Assembly: GCF_013032455.1 (NCBI RefSeq)
Contig: NZ_WQCF01000002.1
Coordinates: 248,001 to 312,000, forward strand
Direction: 5' to 3'
DNA length: 64,000 nt
Source: Ruegeria atlantica
GTDB lineage: Bacteria > Pseudomonadota > Alphaproteobacteria > Rhodobacterales > Rhodobacteraceae
This document shows positions 45,568 to 54,354 of this stretch, in pieces. Both the position numbers and the translations under genes were made by a program. The notes beneath the pieces were generated by a model. It ran no database searches, had not been told where the DNA came from, and saw nothing but the letters and a program-made list of their open reading frames with translations. Positions within the stretch are counted from its first letter, which is position 1. Every line of letters begins with the position of its first letter.

Positions 45568-46860
45568 ATGGTCGATATTGCGACGCGCGTGTACAATCAT
45601 AAATGGAAGATTGACCCGATTGTCCGGTCTTTAATCGACACAGACTTCTACAAACTGCTGATGTGCCAGTCAGTGTTTCGAAATAAGCCCCAAACGGATG
45701 TGGTTTTTTCACTGATCAACCGGTCGAATCACATTCCTTTGGCTGAATTGATTGACGAAGGCGAGTTGCGCGAACAATTGGATCACATCCGGTCGCTCAG
45801 CCTCAGCCGGGGTGAAAGCACCTGGTTGCGGGGCAATACCTTCTACGGAAAACGGCAGATGTTCCGCTCGGACTTCATGGAGTGGTTCGAGAATATGCGC
45901 CTGCCGCCCTATCACCTGGAGCGCAAGGGCGATCAGTTTGAACTGACATTCGAAGGCAAATGGCATGAAGTCATGCTGTGGGAGATTCCCGCGCTTGCGG
46001 TGTTGATGGAACTGCGGTCCCGCGCGGTTCTGAACAATATGCGCCGGTTCGAACTGCAGGTGCTTTATGCCCGCGCGATGACCCGAGTGTGGGAAAAAAT
46101 CGAACAGTTGCGCCAGATCGACGGGCTGGGCATTGCTGATTTCGGCACGCGCCGACGGCATTCCTTCCTTTGGCAGGACTGGTGCACGCAAGCGATGATC
46201 GAAGGGCTGGGCTCGGCATTTACCGGCACCTCAAATTGCCTGATCGCCATGCGCCGCGAGGTTGAGGCAATCGGGACCAACGCGCATGAACTGCCCATGG
46301 TGTATTCCGCACTGGCCGAAACGGATGAAGCGCTGGCGCAGGCCCCATATGACGTTTTGAGCGATTGGCATGACGAGCACGATGGCAATCTGCGTATCAT
46401 TCTGCCTGATACCTATGGCACGCAAGGGTTTCTGAACCATGCACCCGATTGGCTGGCGGGCTGGACCGGTATCCGCGTCGACAGCGGCGACCCGGCTGCA
46501 GGTGCCGAGATCGCCATCAGTTGGTGGAAGTCGCGTGGCGAGGACCCAACACAAAAGCGGATCATTTTCTCGGACGGGCTGGATGTCGAGAAGATTAAGG
46601 AACTGCATAGCCAATTTGCGGACCGTGCAAATATATCCTTTGGCTGGGGCACCTTGTTGACCAATGATTTCCGCGGGTTGGTGCCTAATGACGCGCTGGC
46701 ACCGTTTTCACTGGTCTGCAAAGCAATCTCGGCCAATGGACGCCCGACCGTTAAACTGTCGGACAACCCGGAAAAGGCGATGGGGCCGAAGGATGAAATC
46801 GAACGCTACAAGCGGGTGTTCGGCGTCGGCACGCAGCAGTCGATTGAGGTCATCGTTTAG
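45568..46860 (+). CDS. pncB: Nicotinate phosphoribosyltransferase
   Basis: A 430-aa enzyme that makes nicotinate mononucleotide from nicotinate and PRPP. Family stretches are IDTDFYKLLMCQSVFRNKP near the start, DFGTRRRHSFLWQDW, FTGTSNCLIAMR and GWTGIRVDSGDPAAGAEIAI (the PRPP-site region), then IIFSDGLDVEKIKEL and NISFGWGTLLTNDF. The histidine that is phosphorylated in the family is expected in the RRRHSF loop. It follows the divergent hypothetical gene and converges on the aldehyde dehydrogenase. Confidence 0.95.
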   Translation: MVDIATRVYNHKWKIDPIVRSLIDTDFYKLLMCQSVFRNKPQTDVVFSLINRSNHIPLAELIDEGELREQLDHIRSLSLSRGESTWLRGNTFYGKRQMFRSDFMEWFENMRLPPYHLERKGDQFELTFEGKWHEVMLWEIPALAVLMELRSRAVLNNMRRFELQVLYARAMTRVWEKIEQLRQIDGLGIADFGTRRRHSFLWQDWCTQAMIEGLGSAFTGTSNCLIAMRREVEAIGTNAHELPMVYSALAETDEALAQAPYDVLSDWHDEHDGNLRIILPDTYGTQGFLNHAPDWLAGWTGIRVDSGDPAAGAEIAISWWKSRGEDPTQKRIIFSDGLDVEKIKELHSQFADRANISFGWGTLLTNDFRGLVPNDALAPFSLVCKAISANGRPTVKLSDNPEKAMGPKDEIERYKRVFGVGTQQSIEVIV

Positions 46861-46863
46861 ACC

Positions 46864-48315
46864 CTAACCATGGTACGCAGCCACGGTTTTCACCTGTGAG
46901 AACCCATAGAGCGCTTCGAACCCTTTTTCGCGGCCGTGACCTGATTTTCCAACTCCGCCAAAGGGCAATTCCACCCCGCCGCCCGCGCCGTAGTTGTTGA
47001 TAAACACCTGACCCGAGCGCAACCGTTTCGCCAGCCGCATCTGTCTTGCGCCGTCGCGGGTCCAGACGCTGGCGACCAGACCGTATTCGGTGGCGTTGGC
47101 GATCTGGATGGCTTCTTCCTCGGTCTCAAAGGGGATCAGAACTTGCACCGGGCCAAATATCTCATCCTGAGCCAGAATGTGATCAGGAGGGACATCGGCA
47201 AAAAGGGTGGGCTGCACATAAGCGCCGTCATCTGGCGCATGATCAATAATGCGCCCCCGACCGGCGACGCTGAGATCCGCGCCCTTGGCTAGAAATTCGG
47301 TCACGATCTCTTTCTGACGGATGGAGATCAGCGGTCCAACCCGCAAATCCTCTTGCGCCGGACCAACGGTCAGCTCGGAATACGCTTCTGCCATTCGAGC
47401 TTTCACCTCCTCATATACCCTACGCTGCACAAGAATACGGGACGAAGCCGAACAGGTCTGCCCTGCGTTCTGAATGCCCGCATTCACAAGAAACGGCAGC
47501 GCCGTATCAAGATCGGCATCGTCAAATACCAATTGCGGGGACTTTCCGCCCAATTCCAGCGTCACCGGCACCACATTGCGCCCCGCCGCCTGCTGGACCA
47601 GCGCGCCCGTGGCGACCGAGCCGGTGAACGAGATATGGTTTACGCCCGGATGTGCCGTCAGCGCGGCCCCGGCTTCAGCCCCTAATCCCGGCACGACGTT
47701 CAGCGCACCAGGGGGCAGACCGGCCTGTTGTGCCAGGTGGGCAAAGGCCAGCGCGGTCAGACAGGCCTCTTCTGCGGGTTTCAGCACACAGGCATTGCCC
47801 ATCGCCAGCGCGGCCCCGACCGAGCGGCCAATAATCTGCATCGGATAATTCCACGGAACGATATGGCCGGTCACCCCATGTGGTTCACGCAGGGTATATA
47901 CAGTGTAGCCATCCAGATAGGGGATCGTCTCGCCCATCACTTTGTCCGCCGCTCCGCCGTAAAACTCGCAATATCGCGCCAGGGCCACTGCATCGGCGCG
48001 CGCCTGCGTCAGCGGTTTTCCCACATCCATTGCCTCAAGCTTGGCAAGGTCATCAACGCGCTCTAAAACCATCTGCCCCAAACGTGTAAGGATGCGTCCC
48101 CGCTCCAATGCGGTTTTGCGACCCCAGTTACCATCCAGAGCAGCTTCGGCGGCGTCGACCGCCTTATGTATGTCCGCGTCGGTCCCTCGTGCGATCTGGC
48201 AGATTTCCGAGCCATCCGACGGGTCAATCATCGGGATCGTCTGCTGTGAGACTGAGGGAACCCACGCGCCGCCAATCAGGCAAAGGGTGGGATTGAACCA
48301 GATTGAATTGGACAT
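46864..48315 (-). CDS. Aldehyde dehydrogenase at the end of the channel-transporter operon
   Basis: A 483-aa NAD(P)-dependent aldehyde dehydrogenase. The catalytic cysteine is C288 in QNAGQTCSASSRILV, with ELGGKSPQLVFDDADLD as the preceding glutamate and NAD region. It differs from BetB at its ends, and its substrate is unknown, perhaps a gamma-aminobutyraldehyde- or betaine-type aldehyde. A GGAGG site precedes the ATG. It lies 20 bases after the double-ATPase gene, so it is the last gene of the operon that imports the ligand, and it could oxidise the aldehyde made from that ligand. Confidence 0.9.
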   Translation of the reverse strand: MSNSIWFNPTLCLIGGAWVPSVSQQTIPMIDPSDGSEICQIARGTDADIHKAVDAAEAALDGNWGRKTALERGRILTRLGQMVLERVDDLAKLEAMDVGKPLTQARADAVALARYCEFYGGAADKVMGETIPYLDGYTVYTLREPHGVTGHIVPWNYPMQIIGRSVGAALAMGNACVLKPAEEACLTALAFAHLAQQAGLPPGALNVVPGLGAEAGAALTAHPGVNHISFTGSVATGALVQQAAGRNVVPVTLELGGKSPQLVFDDADLDTALPFLVNAGIQNAGQTCSASSRILVQRRVYEEVKARMAEAYSELTVGPAQEDLRVGPLISIRQKEIVTEFLAKGADLSVAGRGRIIDHAPDDGAYVQPTLFADVPPDHILAQDEIFGPVQVLIPFETEEEAIQIANATEYGLVASVWTRDGARQMRLAKRLRSGQVFINNYGAGGGVELPFGGVGKSGHGREKGFEALYGFSQVKTVAAYHG

Positions 48316-48334
48316 TGGGACCTCCGTTTAGGCT

Positions 48335-49945
48335 CTAACAAATAGGTTTAGCCATGCTTCTACCGATCTCGGGCAGAGTCGGTGCGGCCTGTATCAGACT
48401 TTGGGTATAGGGGTGTTGCGGGTCCGAAAAGACCTGTTCCGTCTCGCCGTGTTCAACGATCCTACCCGCTTTCATGACCAAAACCCGGTCAGTGATCGTG
48501 CGTACGACACTCAGATCATGACTGATGAAAAGATAGGTCAGATCATAGGCGGCGCACAGCTCGGCCAGCAGATCCAGAATCTGTGCCCGAACGGATACAT
48601 CCAAAGCCGAGACCGCCTCATCAAACAGGATCAGTTCCGGGCGGATGATCAAGGCACGGGCAATGGCGATCCGCTGCCGCTGCCCGCCCGAGAATTCGTG
48701 GATGTACTTGCTGGCATCATTGGGGCTGAGACCCACAGCCGCCAGTATCTCGTCGATACGGTCCTGTCGTTCCGCCCCAGTTGGCGGTGCGTCCAACAGA
48801 TAAAACGGCTCGGTGATCAGACGCGCGACGCGATGGCGGGGATTAAAACTGCCATAGGGATCCTGAAACACCACTTGCACCTTGCGACGCACATCCCGGT
48901 TGGGCGTGTGACCCGAAAAGACAGGCTTACCGTCCAGCCGAATTTCACCGCTCTGCACGTCCGCCAACCCTAATATTGCCTTTGTTAGGGTCGATTTTCC
49001 ACAGCCGGACTCACCGACCAATCCCAGACGCTCACCCCGATTGAGGGTGAAGCTGACATCATTCACCGCACGGTGCTGGCCCGGCACCCCGAACAGACGT
49101 TTCCTGGGCAGACGATAATCACGAACGACGTTTTTAACCTCAAGCAATGGGCGTGGCTGCGGCGGTTGCGGAAGCGTCACCTGATGGTTTGAGGCCTCAA
49201 ACAGCATTCGGGTGTAGGGGTGCTGCATGTTGTGCAGCAATTCGGCCGTTGCCCCGCTTTCGACCACCTCGCCGTGTCGCATCACAACAATCCGATCTGC
49301 CAAATCGGACACCACCGCCAGATCATGGGTGATTATCAGCAGCCCCATGCCATATTCTTCCACCAACCCTTTGAGCAGGTCGAGGATTTGCGCTTGCGTG
49401 GTCACATCCAGCGCCGTTGTCGGCTCATCCGCGATCAATAGCTTGGGTCGCAAGGCGATGGCCATGGCGATCACTACCCGCTGACGTTGTCCCCCGGATA
49501 ACTCGTGCGGGTAGCGTGACAGCGAGAACTGATCGGACGGCAAGCCGACGCGGGTCAGGACCTCCTTGGCGCGTTCGCGGGCCTGCGCGTGGGACATGGC
49601 TTTGTGTATCAGGATGGTCTCCATCACCTGATCACCGATGGTCTTGACCGGGTTGAGCGCCGTCATCGGTTCCTGAAACACCATCCCAATGGACGCGCCG
49701 CGCAGGGCGCACATCTCGGCCTCGGGACAGTTCAGCAGGTCTTGGCCCTCGAGCCGGATTGATCCTTCTGTTTTGGCCCCATTGGGCAACAACTGCATCA
49801 CCGCCAATGCGGTCATGGATTTGCCCGAGCCGCTCTCACCTGTTACGGCCAAGATCTGGCCGGGGTCGATGGAAAAGCTGACCTGCTTCAGGATTTCCGT
49901 CCCGTGGATGGCCACAGACAGGTTTTCGATCTGCAGCAACCTCAT
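48335..49945 (-). CDS. Peptide-type ABC transporter fused double ATPase
   Basis: A 536-aa protein made of two ABC domains in one chain, equivalent to DppD plus DppF. The first has Walker A GESGSGKSM and signature LSGGQRQRV, the second Walker A GESGCGKST and signature FSGGQRQRI. Walker B segments are KLLIADEPTTALD and ELILFDEAVSALD. The linker carries the peptide-transporter type region after each ATPase. It is the energy-coupling part of the importer with the two permeases and solute-binding protein of the operon. It overlaps the permease by 4 bases. Confidence 0.95.
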   Translation of the reverse strand: MRLLQIENLSVAIHGTEILKQVSFSIDPGQILAVTGESGSGKSMTALAVMQLLPNGAKTEGSIRLEGQDLLNCPEAEMCALRGASIGMVFQEPMTALNPVKTIGDQVMETILIHKAMSHAQARERAKEVLTRVGLPSDQFSLSRYPHELSGGQRQRVVIAMAIALRPKLLIADEPTTALDVTTQAQILDLLKGLVEEYGMGLLIITHDLAVVSDLADRIVVMRHGEVVESGATAELLHNMQHPYTRMLFEASNHQVTLPQPPQPRPLLEVKNVVRDYRLPRKRLFGVPGQHRAVNDVSFTLNRGERLGLVGESGCGKSTLTKAILGLADVQSGEIRLDGKPVFSGHTPNRDVRRKVQVVFQDPYGSFNPRHRVARLITEPFYLLDAPPTGAERQDRIDEILAAVGLSPNDASKYIHEFSGGQRQRIAIARALIIRPELILFDEAVSALDVSVRAQILDLLAELCAAYDLTYLFISHDLSVVRTITDRVLVMKAGRIVEHGETEQVFSDPQHPYTQSLIQAAPTLPEIGRSMAKPIC

Positions 49946-50757
49946 GCGCGCGCCACCTTGATCCGCGGGTCCAGCCAGTCGCGCAGCCCGTCGCCCAATA
50001 GGTTCAACCCCAACACCGTGACGATGATCGCCAAGCCGGGAATCAGAGCCAAATGCGGAGCAAAACTGACCATTGTCTGCGCATCGGCCAGCATCCGACC
50101 CCAGCTGGGCGTGGGTGGCTGCGCGCCAAGACCGACATAGGAGAGGCCCGCTTCGGCGAGTATCCCTAGCGAGAACTGGATAGTCCCCTGCACGATCAGC
50201 AAGTTCGCCACATTGGGCAGGATATGTTCCGCCGAGATACGCGCTGCACCTTTGCCTGACACACGGGCGGCGAGAATGAACTCACGCTCCCAAAGCGACA
50301 GAGCCGCGCCGCGGGTTATGCGAGCGAAGACGGGAATGTTGAAAATGCCGATGGCAATGATGGCATTGATTGCTCCGGCACCGAATACGGCGGTGATCAG
50401 GATGGCGATGACCAGCGAGGGAAAGGCAAAGACCAGATCATTGCCGCGCATGATTACCTCATCAAGCCACGACCCCTTGCGTGCCGCAGCAGTCAGGCCA
50501 AGAGGCACGCCCAGCGCCATGCCTATACCCACCGCCACCAATGCCACGGCAATCGAGGTCCGCGCACCGACCATGATCATCGAAAACATGTCCCGGCCAA
50601 AATGATCGGTGCCAAACACATGCTGCGAATTTGGCGGCTGTAGTTTACTGGGAATGTTCAGCGCTGCGTGGTCATAAGGCGTCCATACGAACGAGATCAG
50701 CGCCGCCAGCAACACCAGAGAAGACAGAGTCGCACCAAGGATTAGATTGCGCCTCAT
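49942..50757 (-). CDS. Peptide-type ABC transporter permease (DppC-like)
   Basis: A 271-aa membrane subunit with five to six helices. It starts MRRNLILGATLSSLVLLAAL and shows the DppC-type HVFGTDHFGRDMFSMIMVGA motif. The ATPase-docking loop is in REFILAARVSGKGAARISAE near residue 175. Four-base overlaps with both neighbours place it in the same transcript. Such permeases carry dipeptides, nickel, opines or amines, so the class alone does not set the substrate. Confidence 0.94.
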   Translation of the reverse strand: MRRNLILGATLSSLVLLAALISFVWTPYDHAALNIPSKLQPPNSQHVFGTDHFGRDMFSMIMVGARTSIAVALVAVGIGMALGVPLGLTAAARKGSWLDEVIMRGNDLVFAFPSLVIAILITAVFGAGAINAIIAIGIFNIPVFARITRGAALSLWEREFILAARVSGKGAARISAEHILPNVANLLIVQGTIQFSLGILAEAGLSYVGLGAQPPTPSWGRMLADAQTMVSFAPHLALIPGLAIIVTVLGLNLLGDGLRDWLDPRIKVARA

Positions 50758-51701
50758 GTCCGGCTCCTCAGGCGCGGGTCAACAGCGGCATAGGCCAGAT
50801 CGACCAGAAAATTCACGGTGATGACCGCGAAAACCAACAGCATGACAACGGATTCAACCACGATCAGGTCACGCGCCGAAATGGCCTGAAACACCAACCG
50901 GCCGAGACCGGGTAAATAGAATACCTGCTCGATGATAATCGACCCGGCCAGCAGGAAAGAGAACTGTAACCCGACAATGGTCAGTACCGGGATCAGCGCG
51001 TTGCGTACCCCGTGCCGCCAAAGGGCCTGACGGCGCGACAAGCCCTTGGCGCGCGCAGTGCGCATGAAATCCTCACCCAGGATATCCAGCAGGGAAGACC
51101 GCATGACCCGTGCCAGAATGGCCGCCTGAGGCAAGGCCAGCGCAATGGCGGGCAAGGTCAGCGAGTGCATTCCGGCCAAGAACCCATTGTCCCAACCGAC
51201 GAACCCTCCGGCGTTGAACCATCGCAAATTGATGGCGAAGATCAGCACCAGCATCATCGCGAACCAGAAATTCGGCACCGCAATACCCAGCTGCGTCGCC
51301 CCCATTACCGTCAGGTCTCCGGGCTTTCCCCGGCGCGCAGCAGCGTAGATCCCAGCGGGAAAGGCGATCAGGGTGGACAACGTCAGCGCATAAAGCGCCA
51401 GCGGCAGAGACACCCACAACCGGTCCGCGATCATCTGCGACACCGGCGTGCGATAGGTGTAGGAGGTGCCGAAATCCCCCACCAACATGCCGCCTACCCA
51501 CGTTAAATAACGCTGCACTTTAGAGCCGTCCAACCCAAGCTCGGCCCGCAGCGCGGCTAGCGTATCCTCTTGTGCATTCACGCCCAACATGAATGAGGCC
51601 GGATCGCCCGGAGCCACCTCGATCACTGCAAAGATGACCACTGATGCAACCACAAGGCTGATCAGCAGAGATATCAGGCGTTTGAGGGCATAGCGGAGCA
51701 T
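50754..51701 (-). CDS. Peptide-type ABC transporter permease (DppB-like)
   Basis: A 315-aa membrane subunit from the ATG at 51701, where the family N-terminus MLRYALKRLISLLISLVVAS begins. A longer frame to 51842 would overlap the ion-channel gene and is rejected. DppB-type stretches are FAVIEVAPGDPASFML, FGTSYTYRTPV and GLQFSFLLAGSIIIEQVFYL, and the docking loop is in DFMRTARAKGLSRRQALWR. It begins 40 bases after the stop of the channel gene, with no clear Shine-Dalgarno. Confidence 0.92.
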   Translation of the reverse strand: MLRYALKRLISLLISLVVASVVIFAVIEVAPGDPASFMLGVNAQEDTLAALRAELGLDGSKVQRYLTWVGGMLVGDFGTSYTYRTPVSQMIADRLWVSLPLALYALTLSTLIAFPAGIYAAARRGKPGDLTVMGATQLGIAVPNFWFAMMLVLIFAINLRWFNAGGFVGWDNGFLAGMHSLTLPAIALALPQAAILARVMRSSLLDILGEDFMRTARAKGLSRRQALWRHGVRNALIPVLTIVGLQFSFLLAGSIIIEQVFYLPGLGRLVFQAISARDLIVVESVVMLLVFAVITVNFLVDLAYAAVDPRLRSRT

Positions 51702-51741
51702 TGAGACCACGTTAGGATCACATATCGCGCGGGTCCAGCAC

Positions 51742-52812
51742 CTAAGGCACCAGCAGATAGGCAAAAATCGCATAGCCGACGATGGCGGCATAGCCCAGAG
51801 GATAGATCCACTTGATCGCGTAATTGTCCAGCATTCTCGCACCGTCCTCGCGCCCAGAGACCTTTAATTTGCGCAAGGCCACGTTGAACACGATCAACGC
51901 CCCGGTCATCAGGAACATGCATTGCAGAACAAAATCCAGAAAGGTCAGGTATCCAAGCTTGGGCAGGTCGGCAGAAATCGCCCAATTGAAGGCTACAAAG
52001 ACCAGCAGGTTGCCCCCGGCGATCTCAATCCGGCGTCGATATTCATCGAGGAAAAACAGCGCCCAGCCCACTGTAATCAGAACCAGCATCGGCAGGAAAA
52101 CCCGGATCACGTAATAAGTCAGGTGACGGTGGCCCTCAAACGCCAGCGCAATCTGATCGCTGTCGCGACCGGACAGACCAATGACTGTCGAGTGTTGAAC
52201 CCGTGCGTTGTCCAATATCCACTCTTCTTCTCCCAGCAGGTCACCGAGGCCGGAAAACTCTTCAAGCGGGTAGTAAGTCACGTAGCCGGACGGAAAAACC
52301 GACACGACTTCGAAAAAGAACTGTTGCGTGTCGAAAGGGTATTTGCGGAAATCAAAATGCGGGGCCTGCAAAGTCAGCGAAGATTTTTCGACATAAACCA
52401 CCTCGCCGTCATGACGCAGCGAGGCCGCGGATTCGTGTATCCATTTGTTGGACTGCTGGTTGTGGACAACAAAGGCCGGTACAATCGCCCCAAGACCACG
52501 CGCGTGATCTGCCAATGCCGGAGGGTTGAAGACTTGGAAGTCCCGCCCGACTGCCTCGCGATCAAAAGCCAGCGCCGGGTCGGTCCATTCGGCACGCAGA
52601 ACAACCACAGCACCGTAATTCTCGGCCTTCTGATCTACGCTTGTGACCTGATCAATGCGGATACCAATGCCAACCTGCAACGGGTTTTCAGGCGTGCCGA
52701 CCAGCGTCCCCAGCCCGCGCTCTAACCCATTCTGTGCCGATACCTGACCACCGCTGAAAGAGATCAGGCACAGGGCTAAAACAATAATGCAAATGGCGCG
52801 GACCACGGTCAT
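51742..52812 (-). CDS. Prokaryotic pentameric ligand-gated ion channel (GLIC/ELIC type)
   Basis: A 356-aa protein with a signal peptide (residues 1-26, MTVVRAICIIVLALCLISFS) from the ATG at 52812. The extracellular beta-sandwich domain (about 27-230) has the Pro-loop FDFRKYPFDTQQF at 153-165, the equivalent of the Cys-loop but without cysteines. Four membrane helices follow at about 233-255, 262-280, 290-311 and 335-354, with AFNWAISADLPKLGYLTFLD at the end of M2 and in the M2-M3 loop matching the GLIC/ELIC pattern. The M3-M4 loop is short, as in bacterial channels. It sits between the binding protein and permease of an ABC operon. Confidence 0.93.
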   Translation of the reverse strand: MTVVRAICIIVLALCLISFSGGQVSAQNGLERGLGTLVGTPENPLQVGIGIRIDQVTSVDQKAENYGAVVVLRAEWTDPALAFDREAVGRDFQVFNPPALADHARGLGAIVPAFVVHNQQSNKWIHESAASLRHDGEVVYVEKSSLTLQAPHFDFRKYPFDTQQFFFEVVSVFPSGYVTYYPLEEFSGLGDLLGEEEWILDNARVQHSTVIGLSGRDSDQIALAFEGHRHLTYYVIRVFLPMLVLITVGWALFFLDEYRRRIEIAGGNLLVFVAFNWAISADLPKLGYLTFLDFVLQCMFLMTGALIVFNVALRKLKVSGREDGARMLDNYAIKWIYPLGYAAIVGYAIFAYLLVP

Positions 52813-52872
52813 GTTCAGGCTCGCTCTGATGTACACAAACCCGGGGCCACCGATTGCAGCCACGGGAATTGG

Positions 52873-54354
52873 TTATTCGGACCAGCTGATTTGGGTCAGG
52901 TCGATGGCAGCGGTGGGCGCATTTTTCCACAACCCCTGCACACCCGCCTTGGCGACCCCCAGCTTGGCCAGTTGGAACAGGTAACCGTTGACAAAGTCAT
53001 TGGCGATCAGGCGCTGCATTTCACCCAGCAGCTTTTTACGCTCGTCCGGGTCGGTCGTTCCATTCAGGATATCCATCAGCGTCTGCGCATCCAGGCTATC
53101 ATACTGGAAATAATAGTCAGGGCGCGCGTAGATGCCGATATCCATCGGTTCGGTATGACTGACGATGGTCAGATCATAATCCTTGCCCTTGAAAACTGTT
53201 TCCAGCCACTGCGCCCACTCCACGTTGATGATCTCGGCCTTGATGCCGACTTCGGCCAACTGCGCGGCGACGATCTCACCCCCGCGTCGGGCATAGGATG
53301 GCGGTGGCAAGTGGAGTGTGGTCTCAAACCCCTTTTCATAGCCCGCATCGGCCAGCAGTTCGGCGGCCTTCTTCGGGTCATAGGCCGAGGTGCCAGTCAG
53401 ATCGACATAGGCCGGGTTATGAGGCGCAAAATGAGTACCGATCGGGGTGCCGTAACCAAACATCGCGCCATCAATAATCGCTTGCCGGTCGATGGCATGG
53501 GCCAGCGCTTGCCGCACGCGAATATCGTCAAAGGGCGGTTTCTTGTTGTTGGTCGACACGATGGTTTCGCCTTCGGTCGTGCCAACAAGCACCTGAAAGC
53601 GCCGATCGGCCTCGAACTGAGGCAGGTTTTCAGGCGCAGGAAAATTGTCAAACACGTCCACATCCTCGGCCATCATCGCAGCAAAAGCGGCGGTCGGGTC
53701 CGAAATGAACTTAAATGTGGCTGTCTCTAACGCAGGCTGATCACCCCAGTAATTCGGGTTTCTGTTCAGCGTAATGCTGTCGCCCTGCATCCAGTTGCCA
53801 AAGGTGAAGGCACCGGTGCCCACGGGGTTGGTCTTGATGGTGTCGATACTGTCTGCCGAGACGATCACTGCATCGCCCCAGGCCATATTGAACAAGAAAT
53901 TCCCGGTAGGCTCGGACAGGGTAACCTTGACCGTCAGAGGATCGACAACCTCAACGCTTTCAATGGCTGCAAACAGCGCCTTTTGCGCATTGGCACTGTC
54001 TTCGGCCGTGGCACGATCCAAGGTGAACTTGACGTCTTCGGCGTCCATGGTGGTGCCATCGTGGAACGTGACGCCATCATGCAGCTTGAATGTATAAACG
54101 GTACCGTCCTCGGATATCTCCCAGCTTTCGGCTAGGCCCGGCACGACCGAACCATCCCCCATAAACCGGGTCAGACCCTCGAAGATATTTGTGTACACCA
54201 CGGAATCGATCGCCTGCGCCGCAGCACTTGTGGGATCCAGATGCGGGGGCTCAAGCTGCATCGCGATGGTGATATCGGACTTGGCCAAGGCCCCGGTAGC
54301 AAAGACGCTGGCCCCCAGCGCCAGTACAGATGCAAATGATCGCAACGTCTGCAT
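52873..54354 (-). CDS. Peptide-type ABC transporter substrate-binding protein
   Basis: A 493-aa periplasmic family 5 binding protein from the ATG at 54354, after a GGGGGG stretch. Residues 1-24 (MQTLRSFASVLALGASVFAT) are a signal peptide. Diagnostic parts are AMQLEPPHLDPTSAAAQAID, then ENYW-like NRNPNYWGDQPAL and RVRQALAHAIDRQAIIDG. Such proteins bind peptides, opines, amines or polyamines. It is the first gene of the channel-transporter operon and 60 bases before the ion-channel gene. The upstream 173 bases, shared with panB, hold no pattern I recognise. Confidence 0.94.
   Translation of the reverse strand: MQTLRSFASVLALGASVFATGALAKSDITIAMQLEPPHLDPTSAAAQAIDSVVYTNIFEGLTRFMGDGSVVPGLAESWEISEDGTVYTFKLHDGVTFHDGTTMDAEDVKFTLDRATAEDSANAQKALFAAIESVEVVDPLTVKVTLSEPTGNFLFNMAWGDAVIVSADSIDTIKTNPVGTGAFTFGNWMQGDSITLNRNPNYWGDQPALETATFKFISDPTAAFAAMMAEDVDVFDNFPAPENLPQFEADRRFQVLVGTTEGETIVSTNNKKPPFDDIRVRQALAHAIDRQAIIDGAMFGYGTPIGTHFAPHNPAYVDLTGTSAYDPKKAAELLADAGYEKGFETTLHLPPPSYARRGGEIVAAQLAEVGIKAEIINVEWAQWLETVFKGKDYDLTIVSHTEPMDIGIYARPDYYFQYDSLDAQTLMDILNGTTDPDERKKLLGEMQRLIANDFVNGYLFQLAKLGVAKAGVQGLWKNAPTAAIDLTQISWSE

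Follow-up and report, generated by a model that had tools for sequence, protein, structure and literature searches.

A putative ion-responsive channel of the sTeLIC/DeCLIC branch in an exchangeable slot of a family-5 importer locus of Ruegeria atlantica

In a 64,000-nucleotide stretch of the Ruegeria atlantica genome (contig NZ_WQCF01000002.1; hereafter the window), a minus-strand run of six genes encodes a family-5 substrate-binding protein (SBP_5), a pentameric ligand-gated ion channel (pLGIC), the permeases DppB and DppC, a fused DppDF ATP-binding protein and an aldehyde dehydrogenase, placing the channel gene inside the locus of an ATP-binding cassette (ABC) importer. The reading that we favour, with a probability of roughly 55%, is that this channel is ion-responsive (to calcium, perhaps to pH), belongs to the sTeLIC/DeCLIC branch and occupies a permissive slot in a family-5 importer locus that is otherwise independent. 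At the level of sequence we show the slot and its exchangeable contents, a conserved element 5' of dppB, a channel under purifying selection, and conservation in it of the acids that form the calcium site of DeCLIC. The neighbourhood is weaker evidence of shared function because unrelated genes fill the same spot in many relatives and the permease genes seem to have a switch of their own.

Results

Contents of the slot between the binding-protein gene and dppB

To describe the slot we fetched 60 genomes of the family (Rhodobacteraceae) that lack a window-type channel, namely the 40 best-scoring ones listed and 20 from lower down. Of these loci, 13 lack a DppB orthologue further along the stretch, 20 have a junction shorter than 260 bases, and the remaining 27 have one of 0.48-3.5 kb filled with other sequence. 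Open reading frames (ORFs) in the channel-less slots were taken from a crude caller, and one example of each content type was scanned with Pfam. A histone-deacetylase-family gene on the opposite strand occupies the slot of 8 of the 27 loci with other inserts (L102, L103, L104, L110, L112, L126, L127 and L130) and a same-strand cupin that of 6; a histone-deacetylase-family gene, again on the opposite strand, lies between the channel and DppB in three Leisingera loci (L177, L179 and L183). Within the genus, 4 of the 16 channel-less genomes have an antisense SH3_3 gene in the slot and 9 a gene for a secreted protein; 2 slots are almost empty and 1 consists of unread bases. One of the nearly empty slots keeps the apparent last codons and stop of a channel gene, which suggests channel loss.

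The gap between the binding-protein gene and DppB exceeds 300 bases in 40/62 channel-less loci; at the control junctions, counted over all loci, this was the case in 0/105 and 0/102 for the next two and in 11/94 for the fourth. A FastTree phylogeny of 114 loci, built from the binding protein and DppB, requires at least 28 changes of slot content; for the channel label the number is 18, with 7 of the switches forced by well-supported branches. These counts cannot separate gain from loss. The slot labels are clustered on the tree relative to shuffles.

The antisense SH3_3 gene is small (L229, L230, L234 and L237). The secreted protein, of about 340 residues (L231-L233, L236, L239-L243), gave no Pfam match in the one example scanned, and its gene starts close behind the binding-protein stop, without a hairpin.

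Conserved elements flanking the channel gene

Across loci, the element TGGACC-N17-TAACGT ends 6-8 bases 5' of the DppB ATG. With at least 10 of 12 positions matching, it was found 5' of DppB in 90/129 loci (some genomes being represented twice), in 6/2580 shuffled stretches and in 0/116 stretches 5' of DppC. When duplicates are removed, it is present at this threshold in 46/52 channel loci, 16/27 loci with other inserts, 4/4 antisense SH3 loci and 7/9 secreted-protein loci, and the exact element occurs once in the 4.24 Mb genome, at 51737-51709. Its position, spacing and conservation suggest a promoter that would give a leaderless message.

On the other side of the channel gene, a G+C-rich stem-loop follows the binding-protein stop, with a median shuffle z-score of -2.8 in the 52 channel loci. 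Counted with mononucleotide shuffles, z falls below -2 in 37/52 channel loci, 17/27 loci with other inserts, 4/4 SH3 loci and 9/17 clean junctions, and in 5/52 control stretches inside the binding-protein gene. Dinucleotide shuffles of nine folded loci, the window included, gave z < -2 in four. The hairpin is argued here from shuffle z-scores because a consensus fold showed changes on both sides in just 2/6 pairs.

With the stem-loop behind the binding protein and the element before dppB, the channel gene would thus lie between a binding-protein-gene hairpin and a likely dppB start, and these conserved, predicted elements on its two sides argue against one simple transcript. A first-pass annotation of this DNA, made from its letters alone, had proposed a single operon; the short gaps that it noted stand, but the conserved element before dppB and the frequent hairpin behind the binding-protein gene point the other way, and the evidence on a single transcript is divided.

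Family, fold and nearest relatives of the channel

The ligand-binding domain model PF02931 (Neur_chan_LBD) matches the channel with 44.9 bits against a cut-off of 26. The Pro-loop reads FDFRKYPFDTQQF and the M2 stretch AFNWAISADLPKLGYLTFLD. TIGR00860 aligns to residues 59-330 (1e-23), yet under its cut-off, and the transmembrane model PF02932 had no match in the channel at E 0.01, nor in a genome-wide scan, which was empty for its controls too and is therefore uninformative. A structure model computed from 14 orthologues (mean predicted local distance difference test score, pLDDT, 75; predicted template modelling score, pTM, 0.60) consists of a beta domain followed by four helices at the C-terminal end (230-353). 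The first-pass recognition of the channel by its Pro-loop, four membrane helices and M2 stretch is therefore borne out by sequence, PF02931 and model, and family membership goes beyond chance, with orthologues at 64-89% identity in 37/53 other genomes of the genus. As judged from the N-terminal hydrophobic segment, the ligand domain should face the periplasm, on the same side as the binding protein.

Among PDB chains searched with phmmer, the closest solved chain is sTeLIC (3.7e-76), with DeCLIC at about 6e-66 and GLIC at 2e-22 or weaker, also when the query was trimmed to just behind the ATG. Foldseek with the channel model likewise returned sTeLIC first (about 41% identity over 310 columns), then DeCLIC (34-36%); GLIC is only 21-22% identical by fold alignment. 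Match scores and fold search place the channel in the sTeLIC/DeCLIC branch and not with the GLIC/ELIC type, both members of which share the superfamily but are distant. GLIC is gated by protons and ELIC by primary amines; with sTeLIC and DeCLIC as the nearest relatives, proton or primary-amine gating is not transferable to the window channel. We therefore dropped GLIC/ELIC-type gating as a guide; the earlier idea of an amine as ligand had been taken from ELIC, which is not the closest relative.

sTeLIC, from a Tevnia jerichonana endosymbiont (PDB 6fl9, 9ex6), resembles the window channel best by sequence and fold, and shares its EEEW loop F, its Pro-loop and the lack of an N-terminal domain; the vestibule residue W75 of sTeLIC, named in the part of PMC11988449 available to us, aligns with a Val. 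DeCLIC, from Desulfofustis (PDB 6v4a, 7q3g), has all four acids of the calcium site in common with the window channel but carries an extra N-terminal domain that the latter lacks. The DNA fetched around the Desulfofustis channel (L226) holds no orthologue of the window importer.

Long N-terminal extensions like that of DeCLIC were also seen in the loci L213, L215, L216, L218, L219, L221, L223, L224 and L226, with open frames of 631-763 residues. These extended channels come from Anaerolineae, other Chloroflexi, Scalindua, Pleurocapsa and Desulfofustis, and no window-importer orthologue stands alongside, except for distant ABC ATPases near L215, a locus unlinked to the importer in which two such ATPases lie nearby on the other strand (35-37% identity to DppDF).

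Acids of the DeCLIC calcium site

A calcium ion in DeCLIC is surrounded by E347 from the beta1-beta2 loop together with E479-E481 from loop F, and calcium depletion activates this channel (PMC9897478, in the portion available). These residues align to E64 and E195-E197 of the window channel. All four positions are Glu in 50/50 slot channels and in 74/79 fetched channel loci; the remaining five comprise two with EEEA, one with QEVE and two in which positions are missing, as these loci begin inside the channel. For sTeLIC, PDB titles describe a channel 'gated by alkaline pH', a Ba2+ complex and a 4-bromophenethylamine complex, the latter bound in the vestibule, which also binds 4-bromoamphetamine (PMC11988449, available part).

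Selection on the channel

The channel is under purifying selection, with a median ratio of nonsynonymous to synonymous substitution rates (dN/dS) of 0.103 over 44 comparisons; the binding protein has a value of 0.055 and DppB one of 0.041. Damaged copies occur in some genera, with inside stops in genome G007 and a split frame in G110, where sequencing error is possible.

Distribution and gene order

We surveyed 394 genomes of the family at E <= 1e-10, the window type being defined by a best match of 44% or more (others, 29% or less). A channel was found in 26/394 genomes, and 17 of these 26 carry the sTeLIC/DeCLIC-like window type, with the binding protein directly upstream in 13, cut off by a contig end in 1 and elsewhere in 3. 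The binding-protein orthologue is present in 240/394 family genomes and in 54/54 genomes of the genus (one genome read in part). Within the genus the channel has one match in each of 38/54 genomes, always downstream of the binding protein on the same strand, 50-143 bases away as counted between matched ends (38/38). From named genomes we fetched 79 channel loci: in 50 the binding protein is the immediate upstream neighbour, 2 are truncated but retain DppB on the downstream side, and the other 27 show no linkage to the importer. The comparison of gene order in relatives, which the first-pass annotation had put forward as a check, thus found the order kept in 50/79 fetched loci and 38/38 in the genus.

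In 13 of the 27 unlinked loci the gene immediately before the channel, in the same orientation, is typA-like, as recognised from its sequence. These loci (L198, L199, L201, L203-L211 and L220) include Shimia and Thiosulfatihalobacter, and their channels are 45-48% identical; the adjacency of typA and channel is kept across species, with the importer not there. In another genome of the window's genus (L040, G043), about 6.5 kb separate the channel and DppB and hold genes that by eye resemble those for sarcosine oxidase subunits. A channel relative was looked for in viral contigs and not found, and a PF02931 survey of the phylum returned channels in 6/398 genomes, too few for a neighbour statistic.

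Anatomy of the locus and identity of the importer

The six-gene minus-strand run with short gaps or 4-base overlaps, as first annotated, was confirmed, the spacings from binding protein to dehydrogenase being 60, 40, -4, -4 and 19 bases (Table 1). By Pfam the parts of an Opp/Dpp-type importer are complete (SBP_5, two permeases and two ABC domains), and the set resembles such importers in having SBP_bac_5, BPD_transp_1 in two proteins and a double ABC_tran with oligo_HPY; it differs from them in that the scores of the binding protein and the permeases fall under every cut-off among the NCBIfam models listed, which leaves the substrate class unassigned by these models. DppDF passes some NCBIfam ATPase cut-offs, but through the summed score of its two fused domains, and the aldehyde dehydrogenase stays under every cut-off among the 25 NCBIfam families listed. 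On the plus strand the set is flanked by genes that we take, from sequence only, to be panB (54480 onwards) and pncB (45568-46860). In Ruegeria pomeroyi the importer locus is presumably SPO0097-SPO0101. The available text of PMC4809877 names SPO0098 'Peptide/opine/nickel transporter, ATP-binding' and gives no further substrate there, and the importer substrate was not found in the parts available of the Ruegeria pomeroyi transporter papers PMC10130141 and PMC9870897.

Table 1. Features of the channel and importer locus (window positions)
Feature	Position	Strand	Evidence
Substrate-binding protein, SBP_bac_5 family	54354-52873	-	Pfam SBP_bac_5, 317 bits
Intergenic stretch with G+C-rich stem-loop 3' of binding-protein stop	52813..52872	-	Shuffle z-scores
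pLGIC channel, ATG 52812, stop 51742	51742..52812	-	Neur_chan_LBD PF02931; sTeLIC/DeCLIC matches; model and fold search; dN/dS
Channel codon Glu64 (Met = 1), corresponding to DeCLIC Ca2+-site E347	52621..52623	-	Alignment and conservation
Channel codons Glu195-Glu197, corresponding to DeCLIC loop F E479-E481	52222..52230	-	Alignment and conservation
Promoter-like element TGGACC-N17-TAACGT, 7 bases 5' of DppB ATG	51709..51737	-	Conservation across loci
DppB-type permease	51701-50754	-	Pfam BPD_transp_1
DppC-type permease, 4-base overlap with DppB	50757-49942	-	Pfam BPD_transp_1
Fused double ATP-binding protein (DppDF/YejF-like)	49945-48335	-	Pfam ABC_tran twice and oligo_HPY
Aldehyde dehydrogenase	48315-46864	-	Pfam Aldedh

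Discussion

The arrangement is best explained, in our view, by an ion-responsive channel in a permissive slot. The channel would be transcribed mainly through read-through from the binding-protein promoter, at a transcript level that would be lower because a hairpin precedes its gene, and the permease, ATPase and dehydrogenase genes would start from a promoter of their own, probably leaderless. In the inner membrane, periplasmic calcium may hold the channel closed, and a drop in calcium or a shift in pH, perhaps alkaline, would open it as in its relatives; the open channel would pass cations and could signal through depolarisation. The importer substrate need not be the channel ligand.

Several findings weigh against this explanation. 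The channel lies directly behind the binding-protein gene in every channel-bearing genome of the genus (38/38), and in the five linked loci (out of 50) that carry extra genes (L175, L177, L179, L183 and L194, with inserts of 0.46-6.6 kb), these sit between the channel and DppB, a position that suggests a tie of the channel to the binding protein. Across the 46 loci holding all eight genes used for distance correlations, channel distances track those of the binding protein best (r 0.86; panB 0.76, pncB 0.76, DppB 0.72), and with the mean of the panB and pncB flanks controlled the values are 0.49 for the binding protein and 0.31 for DppB; the channel is inherited together with its neighbourhood, and the excess correlation with the binding protein would be expected from either physical closeness or cooperation. 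As to transcription, the element 5' of dppB is weak in most clean-junction loci (6/22 with at least 10 of 12 matches), is a poor fit to the E. coli promoter consensus, was not reported by a sigma-70 promoter scan and could be an operator instead of a promoter. The stem-loop reaches z < -2 in 0/9 secreted-protein loci, and that of the window is weak (z -0.95, dinucleotide shuffles). Moreover, gating by calcium or pH is proposed by analogy with the relatives.

Given that the channel in the genus always adjoins the binding-protein gene, a relay between the two is still to be considered, in which the binding protein would present its loaded ligand to the channel in the periplasm, the channel would report the nutrient and the importer would take it up, the permeases being mere neighbours. 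We regard this as unlikely, although the adjacency in the genus and in 50/79 fetched loci, the position of extra genes behind and not before the channel, the distance correlation and three loci in which a channel of another class lies near binding-protein or Cache-domain genes are all consistent with it, and the same idea has been proposed for PBP-II neighbours (PMC549065, available part). Most genomes with the binding protein have no channel, however, 27/79 channel loci have no binding protein alongside, and a stem-loop often stands between the two genes; one insertion followed by vertical descent would also explain the adjacency, and panB and pncB, which flank the set without being related to it, are often conserved as well. 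Quite improbable, in our estimate, is the specific form in which a receptor-type ion channel is gated by the family-5 binding protein and depolarises the cell on the arrival of a nutrient, with calcium as co-regulator.

As a clue, the linkage of channel and binding protein is not new in kind. A 2004 report described bacterial ART-LGIC genes that share conserved neighbourhoods with stand-alone PBP-II genes, and proposed chemoreceptor roles for them, with binding proteins aiding ligand sensing (PMC549065, available part). The predicted operons described there are like the window in that a binding-protein gene stands beside a channel gene and cooperation is proposed; the window differs from them in its complete family-5 importer locus, and a slot and a promoter-like element are not described in the part of that paper available to us. 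No paper on the arrangement of importer and channel was found among the literature matches listed, in which the sole paper naming both a ligand-gated ion channel and Ruegeria is a whelk microbiome study.

The neighbours of channels of other classes were read by eye, with Pfam scans of ten chosen proteins. A phosphonate-binding type lies nearby in L257, SBP_bac_3 on the other strand in L255 and dCache_3 in L254, and in three family loci (L032, L033 and L036) such channels stand beside two long genes that by eye resemble tamA and tamB. L034 (G180:C57, 487-9863) shows a second, different neighbourhood of channel and importer: genes for a TAXI-type TRAP binding protein (NMT1_3) and a DctM permease are followed by that for a channel of another class (29% identical), and all of them adjoin a DppBCDF set 64-73% identical to that of the window. 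Relatives of the G180 channel occur in ten other family genomes, and no TRAP genes were noticed in the eight of them read by eye with the crude ORF caller (G207 and G141 left out); the TRAP and channel neighbourhood is a single case so far.

That channel and importer form one operon, with the same small ligand (an amine or a peptide) gating the channel directly, is a doubtful alternative that we consider distinctly improbable. Short spacings and conserved order fit it, as does the binding of 4-bromophenethylamine and 4-bromoamphetamine in the sTeLIC vestibule, but dppB has a promoter-like element of its own, the slot contents are exchangeable, an antisense gene separates channel and DppB in the three Leisingera loci, orthologous channels exist unlinked to the importer, the nearest relatives respond to pH or calcium, and no importer substrate is assigned. 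The first-pass proposal of one functional unit with a common ligand was not supported, in view of a binding protein usually found without a channel, the exchangeable slot, the dppB element and the typA-linked orthologues. Least probable of all is that the channel is a neutral passenger, unconnected with the importer and with the sensing needs of its host and kept by drift and recombination only. Patchy presence, repeated change on the tree and the damaged copies in G007 and G110 (possibly sequencing errors) would fit this, but it sits poorly with the presence of the channel in 38/54 genomes of the genus, the full conservation of the calcium-site acids in slot channels and the median dN/dS of 0.10 (44 comparisons).

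We know of no established function for the bacterial relatives of nerve receptors. The relay, if true, would give the pLGIC family a physiological role in bacteria. With the preferred explanation, an ion-responsive channel in a permissive slot, calcium and pH become the focus in place of the importer substrate, and the analysis of the slot warns that conserved gene order need not imply shared function. This branch of channels is present in 38 of the 54 genomes of one marine genus, and its channel-less natural relatives keep the same binding protein, which brings a deletion or comparison test within reach.

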